Source: Cytophagaceae bacterium (lineage in GTDB: Bacteria; Bacteroidota; Bacteroidia; Cytophagales; Spirosomataceae). From it: a stretch of DNA of 36,112 nucleotides. This document shows, one piece after another, positions 7,724 through 26,304 of this stretch. The notes under the pieces were generated by a model. That model ran no database searches. It worked only from the letters and a program-made list of their open reading frames with translations, and had not been told where the DNA came from. The stretch lies in assembly GCA_026785975.1 (NCBI GenBank), contig JAJAZB010000113.1:1-36112 (forward strand). Direction: 5' to 3'. Positions within the stretch are counted from its first letter, which is position 1. Each line of letters starts with the position of its first letter. The translations under genes were made by a program, and so were the position numbers.

Positions 7724-8998
7724 CTAATCGTCCTCCTCAGTCACGAGCACTTTATCGATCCGGCGATCGTCCATATCGACGACTTCGATGCGCATATCGC
7801 GCCAGGTAAATGTTTCGCCGACCTGCGGAATGCGTTCGAGTTGGTGCAGGATAAAACCGGCCAGCGTACTAAAATCCTCTTCCAGAAATTCGCGCGGATC
7901 GCGATCCATCCGACCCAGAAAGTCAATGAAAGGCATCTGAGCGTCAACCAGATAACTGCCGTCGTCGCGCTTCACAAAACTATAATCTTCGCCCTCGGCG
8001 TCGGGCACGTTGCCTACAATGGCTTCAAAAATATCATTGACCGTCACCATGCCCTGCAAGGTTCCGTATTCGTCCACAATGAATCCCTGATGAACGCGGG
8101 ATTCTCTGAATTTTTCCAGAATCTGGTAGGCCGAATTGTTTTCGGGCACGTAAAGCGGTTTTTTCATCAAATCGCGCGGCCGGGCTTCATCGGGGCTGAC
8201 GTACAGGTCTTTGATGCTGACTACGCCCACCATCCGGTCGATGCTGCCTTCGCAAACGGGATAAATGGAGTGCCGCTCCGCCCGGACAATCGCCTGGTAC
8301 TGATCGGAAGTCGCGTCGGCATCGAGCCAAACCAGGTCGCTGCGGGTGGTCATGAGCGAGGTAATGTTGCGATCGCTGACGTTGAACACGTTCTCGACGA
8401 TTTCCTGCTCAATTTCGTCGATGGTGCCCTGCTCCATGCCTTCGTTGATAATCGCCTTGATTTCTTCTTCCGTCACGGCGCTGTCGTCGGTTTTCCGAAT
8501 ACCCAACACCTTGATCACCAGACTCGTCGAGGTGGAAAGCAACCAGATAAACGGGTGGGCGATCCGCGAAAGAATACTCATCGGCAACGCGACCGCTTTG
8601 GCGATACTCTCGGCGCGGGTCAGGCCAATGCGTTTGGGGACGAGTTCGCCGATAACCAGCGAAAAATAGGTAATGCCGATGAGCAACAAGCCCAAAGCCA
8701 GGGGACGGGCGTAGGGACGGATGGGTTCGAACTGCTCCAGCCAGGTGCGGATGGGTAGCGCGAGCGCGTCGCCCGAAAAAATACCCGTTAGAATGCCAAT
8801 GACGGTAATGCCTACCTGCACGGTCGAGAGAAACGTATCGGGGTGTTCAGCCAGTTTGAACGCCGCCCTGGCGCGGCTATCTCCCCGCTCCGCATCGTGT
8901 TTTAAACGGGATTTTCGGGCCGATACGAGGGCGATTTCCGACATGGAAAATACCCCGTTGAGCACCATCAGGAACAGCAGAATTAGAATTTCAGACAT
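7724..8998 (-). CDS. CNNM/CorC-type hemolysin-family protein with CBS pair
   Basis: Membrane protein of the CNNM/'hemolysin' (TlyC/YfjD) family, linked in characterised members to Mg2+ or Co2+ efflux. The 424 residues run in the standard order: a DUF21/CNNM membrane domain (about 1-195, opening MSEILILLFLMVLNGVFSMSEIALVSAR, with GELVPKRIGL near 125), a CBS pair (about 210-335, including YPVCEGSIDRMVGVVSIKDL and GFIVDEYGTLQGMVTVNDI), and a C-terminal CorC/HlyC domain (about 350-420). Length is normal for the family. It lies 120 nt downstream of the MtnK-like kinase on the same strand and may share its transcript. Confidence 0.93.
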   Translation of the reverse strand: MSEILILLFLMVLNGVFSMSEIALVSARKSRLKHDAERGDSRARAAFKLAEHPDTFLSTVQVGITVIGILTGIFSGDALALPIRTWLEQFEPIRPYARPLALGLLLIGITYFSLVIGELVPKRIGLTRAESIAKAVALPMSILSRIAHPFIWLLSTSTSLVIKVLGIRKTDDSAVTEEEIKAIINEGMEQGTIDEIEQEIVENVFNVSDRNITSLMTTRSDLVWLDADATSDQYQAIVRAERHSIYPVCEGSIDRMVGVVSIKDLYVSPDEARPRDLMKKPLYVPENNSAYQILEKFRESRVHQGFIVDEYGTLQGMVTVNDIFEAIVGNVPDAEGEDYSFVKRDDGSYLVDAQMPFIDFLGRMDRDPREFLEEDFSTLAGFILHQLERIPQVGETFTWRDMRIEVVDMDDRRIDKVLVTEEDD

Positions 8999-22249: not shown

Positions 22250-22603
22250 TTAGTCATGGGCGATGATTTCATCGTTGGTCAACTCAATCAAATTGTAGGA
22301 ATTAAACAGACGGATAATTTCGTGAAAGTTTTTGCAAAATAAGTCTAAACGCTGACGGTTCTTCAGGTTGCCTGCCGTGATGAGAAGCAATTTCGCGGGT
22401 TGTTTCTGCAACAAATAGCTATCGTGAAAATCTGAATCTTTGGTAATAACAATTCGATTTTAGCTATCGGCTACCTGCCTGATGTAGTGATCTTCGGTTT
22501 CGTCCCGGTCGGGCAGGTCGTCGGTATGTTTGGTATCAAAGCCCCTCTCCGACAACCAGATAGCCAGCAATGGTGGTAGTTGAGCATCTACCAGGAATTT
22601 CAT
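22250..22603 (-). pseudogene. DUF5615 PIN-like toxin-type gene with in-frame nonsense codon
   Basis: Reads MKFLVDAQLPPLLAIWLSER, then DTKHTDDLPDRDE..VADS, a TAA at 22460-22462, then NRIVITKDSDFHDSYLLQ and on to HEIIRLFNSYNLIELTNDE, ending at TAA 22250-22252. Without the internal stop it would be ~117 residues, the usual DUF5615 size, with PIN-like acidic positions D6, the DLPDRDETED region and KDSDF. The TAA could come from AAA by one change. Start overlaps the DUF433 stop as ATGA. As it stands only the first 47 residues would be made. Confidence 0.88.
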
Positions 22604-22833
22604 ACCAATACTTTCTGAATACTTTTGACGCGGGCTAATTTGGCAGCATATGCCAGACAAGCCAGAATATCAGCTTCTTCCAGCGTAGGGTAATCGGCTA
22701 AAATTTCCGCGTGGGTCATCCCCGAAGCCAGCAAGTCCAGAATCAGTTCGACGGGGTAGCGTTTGTTCCGGATCGTCGGCTTGCCATGACAAACATTTGG
22801 GTTCAGGGTGATGCGCGTGAGCAGGTTATCCAT
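22600..22833 (-). CDS. DUF433 antitoxin-like protein
   Basis: 77-residue DUF433 protein (MDNLLTRITLNPNVCHGKPTIRNKRYPVELILDLLASG...YPTLEEADILACLAYAA), a small winged-helix-like domain usually found directly upstream of DUF5615 genes in presumed toxin-antitoxin pairs. The start at 22833 is preferred over 22854 because homologues begin near the ITLNPNVCHGKP motif. The 4-nt overlap with the DUF5615 frame supports translational coupling. With the toxin-like half interrupted, the antitoxin-like half remains intact. Confidence 0.88.
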   Translation of the reverse strand: MDNLLTRITLNPNVCHGKPTIRNKRYPVELILDLLASGMTHAEILADYPTLEEADILACLAYAAKLARVKSIQKVLV

Positions 22834-22929
22834 GCTTCTTTGGGTTTTAAGCAAGTTATCGTTTTAGGGTGGCTAATCAAAGCTAAAGCCATCACACGCA
22901 ACCAGGAGTTATTTATTCTCATCTTTACC

Positions 22930-22981
22930 CGCAGTCGCTTGCCTCTGGCGAGTGACTGCGCTTCGCGAGCTACTGCGGGGG
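22930..22981. repeat. 52-nt direct repeat, copy 1 (overlaps SGNH gene stop)
   Basis: 50 of 52 positions match 24394-24445. Internal arms CGCAGTC (22930-22936) and GACTGCG (22954-22960) give it hairpin potential. It supplies the TAG stop (22970-22972) of the SGNH hydrolase gene. Confidence 0.95.
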
Positions 22982-24250
22982 CAGCGGCACATCAACCTTT
23001 TCCAGCAGTCGATGACGACGGATAACTTCGTTTAGCCGTTGAGCTACTTTTCGGTGACCTTCTGGAATGATATGGTTGTCGAACGCAAAATAATCAGCGG
23101 ACCTGAGCACGTCCGACATATCGGCTAAATACACGCCCGGCATCGGGTTAGCTTTCAAGTGAGATTCGAAGTCCCGAATAATTTCCGGCCCGGTGCCGAC
23201 CGCTTCGATGTGAGTGACAAGCACGGGGCCCCGGTAATACCGCCGCAAGTGCCTCAGGATTTGAAAGAAAATGTCCGTGGGCGTCGCTTCGGCAGCTACT
23301 GACGCAGCGGATGTCGCCGCTACGTGAGCTGCCCGCCGAGCAGTCCAGGCACGCTCCCAAGGCATTACAACCGTGCGCAACGCTGAATACAGGAACTTGA
23401 AGGGAAAATACTGACCCGTTACGTCGTTGTAGCGGACGTACCGATCATACACCTCCCGCCCGGATGATAGCAAGTGAAAATTGGCCTGCTGATACATCTT
23501 GTTTTCGTAATCATCGTTGGCGCAGTACTGTACTATTAGCAGGCGGCACGAATCGAGGTCGAGGCGTTTAAGCAATTCAGTTTCGCGCGCCGTGCCAAAT
23601 GACGACATTCCCGCGTTGAGGGTTTTACAGGCCAGTAAGCGTTCGAGTTGCGAGGTAAAACAGGCCGTATCGTCCACCCCCCACCCCACCGTGAACGAAT
23701 CGCCAAGGAATACCACCGACGGGTCCCGGAGTGAAGCTTCGTCGTCGCGCAGGCCCGCGCTATTGGCGTCGATTTTCGTAGTGAACTCCCAGCCTTTATA
23801 CGTCCCCGCCCGCAGGTTGGGCCGCAAGGTATAGAACAGTTCGGGGTCGTACTGGCTGAGTGACTGGTCGTACTGAAAAATATTTCGATGCCAATCATCC
23901 GCCATGTTGCGCATAAAAGCAAAACCAGGGGCGCTATAGCGCCGCCCTTGCACGAGTCGATTTGCGTAGAGCCAGGCACCCGCTTCGACCACTATAAAGA
24001 CGCCCAATAGCCCCCAAACTCGCACTCCCAACACGCGGCTGAACCACGTTGATAGCCAGATGACGCTGAACAGCACGAGTGCTTTAAACACCCAAACCAT
24101 AGCGGAGTGATGCAAAAACCAATCGAGGTGAAACACGATTAGGGCAACGACGAGAACGAGAGCCAATAGCTCAACCAGCCGACCTTGCGAGCGAATCATA
24201 AGCAGGAAAACAAAAGATAGATGCATCTCCACGCTCCATCGATATTTCAC
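22970..24250 (-). CDS. Membrane-anchored SGNH/GDSL-type hydrolase
   Basis: Up to 426 residues. The N-terminal ~110 residues carry three hydrophobic segments (LLALVLVVALIVFHL, VFKALVLFSVIWLSTWF, GLLGVFIVVEAGAWLYA); the rest is an SGNH domain with block I VVFLGDSFTVGWGV (near 178-191), a following GMSSFGTARE, block III-like YCANDDYEN and the catalytic DNHIIPEGH near 390-398. Members act as esterases or acyltransferases on envelope polymers. ATGs at 24250, 24226 and 24199 are all possible; 24199 (MIRSQGRLVELLALV) is the best alternative. The last codons and the stop come from a dispersed repeat, so the native C-terminus may be altered. Confidence 0.85.
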   Translation of the reverse strand: MKYRWSVEMHLSFVFLLMIRSQGRLVELLALVLVVALIVFHLDWFLHHSAMVWVFKALVLFSVIWLSTWFSRVLGVRVWGLLGVFIVVEAGAWLYANRLVQGRRYSAPGFAFMRNMADDWHRNIFQYDQSLSQYDPELFYTLRPNLRAGTYKGWEFTTKIDANSAGLRDDEASLRDPSVVFLGDSFTVGWGVDDTACFTSQLERLLACKTLNAGMSSFGTARETELLKRLDLDSCRLLIVQYCANDDYENKMYQQANFHLLSSGREVYDRYVRYNDVTGQYFPFKFLYSALRTVVMPWERAWTARRAAHVAATSAASVAAEATPTDIFFQILRHLRRYYRGPVLVTHIEAVGTGPEIIRDFESHLKANPMPGVYLADMSDVLRSADYFAFDNHIIPEGHRKVAQRLNEVIRRHRLLEKVDVPLPPQ

Positions 24251-24393
24251 ACCAATGGGCTAATCATCCGCCCGGTGGCTCCAAACTCAATAGCCGTGAA
24301 TTGTACTTCTTATAGGTCGGAAAGAAAGATGGAGCGCAAAACGCCCACTAAATGCTGATTCTACTTGTCATGAAAAGCTATAAATCTGCTTTC

Positions 24394-24445
24394 CGCAGTC
24401 GCTTGCCTCTGGCGAGTGACTGTGCTTCGCGAGCTACTACGGGGG
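24394..24445. repeat. 52-nt direct repeat, copy 2 (2 nt after the DUF5677-like gene stop)
   Basis: Same orientation as copy 1, with two transitions. It ends 2 nt from the stop (24448-24450) of the AT-rich minus-strand gene. The two copies bracket the SGNH gene. Confidence 0.95.
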
Positions 24446-24447
24446 AA

Positions 24448-25338
24448 TTAATTGGAATCATACAGGTTATTTTTTGTCCTTATTCTGTGCATAATTCTTA
24501 TCAGATTACTTGGGCCTTCTATATTCAAATGGTCAAAAGTCACAATTTCAGGCCAATCGCTATCTTTCGTTTTATTTCTCCAATCATAAATTTCGCTCAT
24601 AAATTTTTTGTCTAAACGAAGGTATTTTCTTAGTAACATTGCTTGTTCTGACAGCAAATACATCCCATAGAAAGTATTAAAAGCTAAATAGTAACGATGA
24701 TAATGTTTATATGAAAAAGTTATCTCACTGAGTTTTTGAGATTTATCTAAATCTCCCCAACCCATTTTTAGTAAGACGTCCGTTCTAAAATGCACCACAC
24801 TTGAAGTAGCAAAATATAAATAATCATAGAGCTCTTTATATCCAGTTTCAATAGCCATTTGGGCTGCCGAAGGTAAGTCGTAGTGACCACTTTGACGCGC
24901 TTTATTCTTGTTGAATGATTTTTCTTCAACAAATTTGACCTTTTCGGCACCTAATAATTTTTCTGCATCAGGTATAATTTGACCAGGATTAAATTTTTGA
25001 AGAAAATTTTGTTGAACAACAATACTTTTGTGTAAATAAAAATTGGTTAAGTATCTTAGATGAGTGTTTCTTTCTTTAACATTTATTTTAAGTAGGTATT
25101 TAATAGAGATTAAATCTTCACAAATGCTTCTTAAAGAGGACATTCTGAAAAAAGATGTAGCATGATCGTCATTAAATGCATTGTAATGATTAAAATCAAA
25201 ACATTTAACAAATGCTGCAGTAATTATTGCCCTTAATTCTATTCGATTCGTCAATTCATACCTTCTCAATTCATCAATACTATCAGTAAGTGATGCGTAG
25301 AGTTTCTGATAGTGCTCTAAGTATTCCAGTTTTTCCAT
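24448..25338 (-). CDS. AT-rich DUF5677-like protein (unknown function)
   Basis: A 296-residue, probably cytosolic, mostly helical protein. The stretch SSLRSICEDLISIKYLLKI and the later ATSSVVHFRTDVLLKMGWG resemble the R...E...L and S..vH blocks of DUF5677 proteins (HEPN-like helical bundles), but I cannot confirm the assignment. By eye it is about 30% GC and uses AT-rich codons throughout, unlike every neighbour, which points to recent horizontal transfer. Start ATG 25338 follows an AT-rich leader with a palindrome. Lone AT-rich genes of this type often belong to mobile or defence cargo; no partner gene is visible. Confidence 0.7.
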   Translation of the reverse strand: MEKLEYLEHYQKLYASLTDSIDELRRYELTNRIELRAIITAAFVKCFDFNHYNAFNDDHATSFFRMSSLRSICEDLISIKYLLKINVKERNTHLRYLTNFYLHKSIVVQQNFLQKFNPGQIIPDAEKLLGAEKVKFVEEKSFNKNKARQSGHYDLPSAAQMAIETGYKELYDYLYFATSSVVHFRTDVLLKMGWGDLDKSQKLSEITFSYKHYHRYYLAFNTFYGMYLLSEQAMLLRKYLRLDKKFMSEIYDWRNKTKDSDWPEIVTFDHLNIEGPSNLIRIMHRIRTKNNLYDSN

Positions 25339-25354
25339 AATATAAATTCTATTT

Positions 25355-25368
25355 TACTATAAATAGTA
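25355..25368. promoter_or_regulatory. AT-rich palindrome upstream of the DUF5677-like gene
   Basis: TACTATAAATAGTA is a perfect dyad 16 nt before the start codon of the AT-rich gene. It may be a promoter or operator site. In AT-rich DNA a short dyad can occur by chance. Confidence 0.3.
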
Positions 25369-25458
25369 TACTCTAACTTTTTACAAGTTTAGTGAATTGT
25401 TACTTATTTGTATTCATTTTACCATTTTGCAAATAACACCCACCTTCAATCACCTGCA

Positions 25459-26304
25459 CTACCTCTTCAAATCCCGATACCCAATCAACTGAATTCCCTT
25501 CGCTTTGATGAGTTCCCGGATGCGTGGGCTTGTCCAGGCGTCGGTGACGCCCTGCCGGTCGAGGGCCACCTGCTCGTAGCCGATGTGATGAATGGCCCGC
25601 AGTTCGGGCGTGTCGAGGCCGGGATGATCCACGAACAGGTAGGTTTTGCCCGCTTCCAGGCTTTCGAGCAATTTAAGCATACTTTCTATTTTCTCCGCCG
25701 GGGTCGCGTGGGCACCGGGGTAGCCAATGTTTGTGACGCCTAAGTCGCTGGGAATGATGTCGATGTGGTATTCCTTCGCCAGCTTCCGAACCATTGCTTT
25801 TACGTCGCTGCCCATGTCGGCGCAGCCCATGTGGCCCGAAAAATGGCTGATGCGCGGGATGTATTTCAGGGCCAGTTCAATCTGCGCACGAAACTCCTTT
25901 TCCACGTCGGCCAGTTGCCAGTCGTTCTCCACCACCGAGCGTTTGGGGTAGTTTTTGTTGGGATAAATCATGGGATAAAAATACCCGTCGGCATCGCGCA
26001 GGCTGGGGCAATCCGATACGGGCCGCCATTTTATATTGTCCCACTCGCTGCTGAGGGCCAGGTGAATACCCACGTCCACGCCGGGATTTTCGGCCAGCAT
26101 CTTCACGGCTTCCGGAAACCAGGGCGAGGGCACGATGACCTCGATGGAAGTCTCAATGCCTTCCTTGAAACACTTTACCAACGCCTCGTTGCCCGAGTGG
26201 GAATAGCCCATGTCGTCGCCCCGAACGATGAGCCGGGGCGGAGCAGTTTGGGCGAAAGCACTGTGGCTGAGCAGGATGAAGAGTACCGGGATTAGCTTTT
26301 CCAT
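25459..26304 (-). CDS. YdjC/ChbG-family carbohydrate deacetylase (secreted)
   Basis: 281-residue protein beginning with a Sec signal (MEKLIPVLFILLSHSAFAQ, cleavage likely after AFA). Metal-binding motifs of the YdjC/ChbG/HpnK family are present: RGDDMGYS (28-35), GIHLALSSEW near 79-88 and SHFSGHMGCADMGS. The family removes acetyl groups from N-acetylated sugars; the periplasmic location suggests action on imported or envelope oligosaccharide. The gene returns to the local GC-rich composition just downstream of the AT-rich gene. It has no obvious operon partner. Confidence 0.9.
   Translation of the reverse strand: MEKLIPVLFILLSHSAFAQTAPPRLIVRGDDMGYSHSGNEALVKCFKEGIETSIEVIVPSPWFPEAVKMLAENPGVDVGIHLALSSEWDNIKWRPVSDCPSLRDADGYFYPMIYPNKNYPKRSVVENDWQLADVEKEFRAQIELALKYIPRISHFSGHMGCADMGSDVKAMVRKLAKEYHIDIIPSDLGVTNIGYPGAHATPAEKIESMLKLLESLEAGKTYLFVDHPGLDTPELRAIHHIGYEQVALDRQGVTDAWTSPRIRELIKAKGIQLIGYRDLKR

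Follow-up and report, generated by a model that had tools for sequence, protein, structure and literature searches.

A stand-alone, AT-rich DUF5677 gene in a Cytophagaceae genome: an acquired gene with a probable role in phage defence

Why does a single AT-rich gene lie among GC-rich neighbours in the genome of a Cytophagaceae bacterium, and what might it do there? The gene lies in a stretch of 36,112 nucleotides (contig JAJAZB010000113.1), hereafter the window, taken from a draft assembly of 4.9 Mb (523 contigs, 88% complete) belonging to the family of Runella. An initial annotation, made from the letters alone, had described a lone DUF5677-like gene with a helical, HEPN-like pattern, probably a recent acquisition and possibly a cargo or defence gene. 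The gene and its immediate borders are as follows.

24448..25338, minus strand: DUF5677-family gene (P0001), 296 aa, AT-rich, stand-alone, with a Pfam match
25339..25455, minus strand: AT-rich leader that separates the P0001 gene from the YdjC-like gene
25459..26304, minus strand: YdjC-like gene, upstream neighbour of P0001; a host gene that has family homologues but lacks a conserved context
24393..24445, no strand: palindromic repeat of 53 bases with a 14-bp hairpin, ending 2 bases from the P0001 stop codon

The P0001 reading frame was uninterrupted over its 296 codons on the minus strand and had a GC content of 30.9% (GC3 25.3%). For comparison, we used 198 ORFs (100 aa or longer) drawn from the window plus 20 further contigs of this assembly, 246 kb with a GC of 53.2%; their mean GC was 54.5% (SD 4.3) and their mean GC3 64.7% (SD 8.0). 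P0001 had the lowest GC of all 198, at -5.5 SD for GC and -4.9 SD for GC3, so the interval and the low GC first reported both held. The edges of the AT-rich block were sharp: in 80-base steps, GC fell below 0.40 just past the end of the repeat at 24445 and came back up at ~25440-25480. The block thus consisted of the gene plus a leader of ~100 bases and stopped just short of the YdjC-like gene. A strict pattern search of 25339..25455 matched no strong promoter of Bacteroidota type. The same genome contained a second extreme AT-rich ORF (L046, 616-1500, 31.9% GC, 294 aa), hydrophobic and membrane-like, located among GC-rich genes and with no Pfam match over the cut-off.

A profile search bore out the DUF5677 identity. 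The sole Pfam match of P0001 was DUF5677 (PF18928), over residues 66-190, with an E-value of 1.7e-10 and a score of 41.7 bits, above the curated cut-off of 27.1. P0001 matched no family of PADLOC-DB 2.0.0 at E<=10, had no NCBIfam match, and gave no significant match in PHROGs or among PDB sequences. The DUF5677 profile itself, searched against PDB sequences, had as its best match 9n2y, which was not significant (E 0.061), and 22 DUF5677 proteins compared with PADLOC gave weak matches only. Among the full texts of 5.4 million open-access papers, the name DUF5677 appeared in only one study, on genome statistics.

The gene was rare among relatives of the host. Protein-level searches found a P0001 relative in 1 of 148 other related genomes and in none of 394 other genomes sampled from the phylum; a two-sequence profile gave a match in 1 of 394 other genomes of the class, a truncated copy of 131 aa. 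DUF5677 as a family was found in 37/390 genomes of the order and in 29/296 genomes of the phylum, that is, in roughly one-tenth of the sampled Bacteroidota genomes. Besides the truncated copy, the close relatives found were three full-length proteins (25-34% identity): L176, the nearest (E 1.5e-48, 33% identity), L186 (E 2.5e-33, 30% identity), and a copy in Runella zeae DSM 19591, from the same family as the host. A C-terminal PE(I/V)xTFxxLNI block marked P0001 and these three as a small subfamily, reading PEIVTFxxLNI at 263-273 in P0001. The truncated relative (L141, 1513-1908) kept the R-x3-E half of the domain, missed the His half, and was directly followed by an alpha/beta-hydrolase-like gene. 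P0001 as a housekeeping or core gene was ruled out, since nearly all relatives lacked the gene and its context was not conserved. Neither core synteny in relatives nor a match to a housekeeping family was found, and a gene missing from almost all relatives, as from the phylum genomes sampled, fits the view of a lone accessory gene.

No P0001 relative was detected in phages and plasmids (tblastn) or in viral contigs (scans), and other DUF5677 queries added no further relatives from viral contigs; a phage or plasmid origin was accordingly set aside. At the borders of the AT-rich block, we found no exact repeat of at least 7 bases that could be a target-site duplication, and a Pfam scan identified no mobile-element gene among the neighbouring genes. 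In no fetched relative were the window neighbours of P0001 adjacent to each other, which prevented the demonstration of an empty site.

The low GC proved not to be peculiar to this locus. Among the 53 DUF5677 loci having enough neighbours for comparison, the DUF5677 gene was below the local median GC in 49 (mean difference -0.10, Wilcoxon p 9e-10) and was the lowest-GC gene of its locus in 28, against 4.8 expected. Where neighbours exceeded 50% GC (17 loci), DUF5677 genes averaged 40% and their neighbours 56%. Low GC is thus a trait of the whole family, GC-rich hosts included. It fits repeated transfer from an AT-rich gene pool; the amino-acid make-up of the protein may contribute part of the effect. 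Since the family keeps its low GC in most hosts, low GC alone cannot date the arrival of P0001. Hence, of the proposed recent acquisition, the acquisition stood, the composition being that of a transferred gene, while the word "recent" was not supported. That the P0001 gene is an acquired accessory gene seems to us highly probable.

We then turned to an alignment of 55 DUF5677 proteins, in which R70 and H183 (P0001 numbering) were invariant (55/55 each) and position 74 was Glu or Asp in every sequence. Tyr occupied position 175 in 49/55, and position 179 was Ser or Asn in 54/55, giving a family signature R-x3-[ED] ... Y-[RK]-x2-[SN]-x3-H. P0001 and its three full-length relatives had R70, E74, Y175, S179, and H183 in common, and the PF18928 match of P0001 spanned this R-x3-E ... 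S-x3-H core. The invariance of R70, E/D74, and H183 suggests chemistry. In HEPN proteins, the active site combines an Rx4-6H that closes helix 3 with an acidic residue in helix 2 (PMC3710099). P0001 differed from most of the family at position 176, seven residues before the His, where 33/55 proteins have Arg or Lys, spaced as in a HEPN R-x6-H; it carries Phe there, as against His in two close relatives and Arg in L186, which is one of 16/55 proteins with R-x6-H. With Phe176, and no Arg 5-7 residues ahead of H183, P0001 departs from the textbook Rx4-6H. As a matter of record, some HEPN families keep the His without the Arg, and another conserved basic residue may serve instead (PMC3710099).

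An AlphaFold2 model of P0001 built from 35 aligned sequences was all-helical (pLDDT 74.9, pTM 0.72); an earlier model from 22 sequences had reached a pLDDT of 61. R70 and E74 were modelled in helix 59-84, and H183 right at the end of helix 168-182. E74 is therefore on a helix ahead of the His helix, and equating that helix with HEPN helix 2 needs a fold match. When the model was compared with PDB and BFVD, no fold match was obtained at E<=0.001, HEPN or otherwise. The helical part of the HEPN-like pattern first noted was thus borne out by the model, and the HEPN part did not extend beyond the level of motifs, there being neither Rx4-6H nor a fold match.

A likeness was found at that level with DUF4145 (PF13643), a family of the HEPN clan that is linked to defence and occurs in many fusions with restriction modules (PMC3710099, PMC3506569). 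Some of four DUF4145 copies had a layout similar to that of DUF5677, with R-x3-E on one helix and a later N-x3-H, but DUF5677 is longer, with a large segment separating the two motifs. Comparison of DUF5677 with DUF4145 and AbiV by hhalign gave no similarity, and the positive control, AbiV against DUF4145, was also negative, so this comparison lacked power. Judged from these sequences, the likeness is a resemblance of motifs and not proof of homology. The R-x3-E ... N-x3-H layout of the DUF4145 proteins L210, L211, and L215 hints that DUF5677 may belong to the HEPN clan.

A gene-neighbourhood survey placed relatives of P0001 among defence genes, in line with the suggestion of a defence gene. 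Directly after L176, on the same strand, came genes for an AbiU homologue, matched at E 2.2e-128 in PADLOC and at E 3.2e-48 by Pfam AIPR, and for an Abi_C protein. These three genes were at 28-33% GC and the next genes of the contig at 40-42%. They form an AT-rich three-gene block, DUF5677-AbiU/AIPR-Abi_C (L176, 170-3916), which is possibly a multi-gene system. AbiU/AIPR abortive-infection proteins adjoin L176 in this same block, yet they are a different protein family and are absent from the P0001 window; AbiU1/AIPR has been linked to restriction systems (PMC3506569). Genes for an OLD-like AAA ATPase (E 1.6e-18) and for a Fic protein that matched the SoFic model at E 2.0e-45 were within ~6 kb of L186. 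Another DUF5677 member, on a Paenibacillus polymyxa plasmid, adjoined a DNA cytosine methyltransferase and was near DndB. The Runella zeae copy was alone among host-type genes, with no defence neighbours at its locus, and the P0001 window had none apart from a damaged toxin-antitoxin (TA) pair. On a wider scale, 112 neighbours of 21 DUF5677 genes matched 360 PADLOC families, as against 101 for 112 control proteins of the same genomes. Such family tallies run too high because ATPase and methyltransferase models cross-match. Matches of the neighbours included PDC-S54 (1.3e-135) and LmuB (1.6e-126); the strong matches shown for the control set were mostly methyltransferases. Collectively, these data make anti-phage defence the best-supported role for P0001, and a reasonably probable one, by analogy with its relatives and not from its own locus.

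A gene whose closest relative has AbiU/AIPR and Abi_C genes as its direct neighbours might also be a passenger of defence islands. P0001 would then be a regulatory or nucleic-acid-binding protein, either a non-catalytic HEPN-like domain or another helical one, for example a brake or sensor for AbiU/AIPR-type partners, orphaned in this genome. Non-catalytic HEPN domains have been described (PMC3710099), and P0001, unlike most members, lacks a basic residue at 176. However, a regulator does not readily account for the chemistry that the invariant R70, E/D74, and H183 suggest, nor for a gene standing alone both here and in Runella zeae, and we regard this explanation as unlikely. Equally unlikely, in our estimate, is that P0001 is selfish or neutral cargo, an AT-rich and rarely shared gene with no defence role, kept briefly and then lost. 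Its extreme rarity, the truncated copy in another genome, and the lack of any partner or mobile-element gene beside it in the window are what one would expect of such cargo. Yet the reading frame is unbroken, and relatives at 25-34% identity have retained the core residues, which argues for selection on the protein somewhere, and the neighbourhoods of relatives are biased to defence.

The surroundings of the gene in the window had also been taken as a sign of cargo or defence. They include the following features.

22929..22981, no strand: second copy of the 53-base repeat, 96% identical
22970..24250, minus strand: SGNH/GDSL-type gene, 426 aa, of host-like GC; not part of a DUF5677 system
22600..22854, minus strand: DUF433 (antitoxin-like) gene, Pfam match, intact
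22460..22660, minus strand: DUF5615 (PIN-like) gene, first half, its frame cut by a TAG at 22460-22462

The two 53-base repeats, which fold strongly into a plus-strand hairpin, flank the SGNH/GDSL gene and not the DUF5677 gene. Two further copies in the assembly (L056 near 8787-8836 and L057 near 8617-8661) lie beside ordinary genes, and near-copies were almost absent from 58 related genomes. The repeat is a dispersed intergenic palindrome of ~50 bases with three arm-like segments, the first of which can pair with either of the other two. In the L056 copy, the stem differs yet still pairs fully, as would a REP-like element peculiar to the lineage. As mobility marks of the P0001 gene the repeats were rejected, because the other copies are by ordinary genes and those of the window flank a different gene; being ordinary intergenic palindromes, they add little to the case for cargo or defence. 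No RNA families were found in the window. The toxin-antitoxin-like pair, ~1.6 kb from the P0001 gene, likewise adds little, since its DUF5615 frame is broken; that frame stays open for ~69 codons beyond the in-frame TAG, which is either real or an assembly error. That P0001 is itself the toxin of a TA pair, its antitoxin missing or encoded elsewhere, is quite improbable: HEPN-type toxins are known in TA pairs (PMC3710099) and the DUF433/DUF5615 pair is at hand, but no small partner ORF lies beside P0001, none is common to the loci of the subfamily, and the neighbouring pair owns a toxin-like half of its own, interrupted as it is.

We favour the reading that P0001 is an acquired and mobile, stand-alone, HEPN-like effector of the abortive-infection type, which would cut or bind RNA against phage, and we give it a probability of about 0.47. 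Acquisition is well supported and defence moderately so; the RNase mechanism we only infer. In this scheme, P0001 would stay quiet until a phage cue, the trigger being conjectural. On the cue, it would act through a composite site in which Arg70 and Glu74 share a helix and His183 comes from where a later helix ends, and would most plausibly cut or bind RNA, so that phage growth is stopped. Read from conserved residues, the likeliest mechanism is that of a HEPN-like RNase with such an R70/E74/H183 site, although we hold it tentatively, at slightly short of even odds. No partner gene was found in the window; P0001 may act alone, or it may be the lone counterpart of a gene that has AbiU/AIPR next to it in a relative. 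A parallel is Tha, a HEPN protein encoded by Staphylococcus aureus prophages that acts against phage as a single gene (PMC11087260). Like P0001, Tha is stand-alone and of similar size (301 aa), and its demonstrated, His-dependent defence is what we propose for P0001 (PMC11087260). In contrast to P0001, which has no Rx4-6H, Tha carries R-N-x3-H, and HHpred detects a HEPN domain in it.

Taken by the window alone, P0001 is an ordinary acquired accessory gene. What is new here is the low GC found across the family, the core residues present in 55/55 proteins, and the AbiU/AIPR-Abi_C and Fic/OLD-like neighbours of relatives. More speculatively, and with a clearly smaller chance of being right than our reading of P0001 itself, DUF5677 proteins as a whole could be unrecognised, widely transferred, single-gene phage-defence RNases. 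Their composite active site would draw its Arg from the helix with R-x3-E and its His from the later one with S-x3-H. The classical HEPN basic residue would thereby be dispensable, and P0001 would be an extreme member that has lost it. The AT bias, the invariant residues, and the AbiU, Fic, and OLD neighbourhoods turn an anonymous domain into a testable defence hypothesis.
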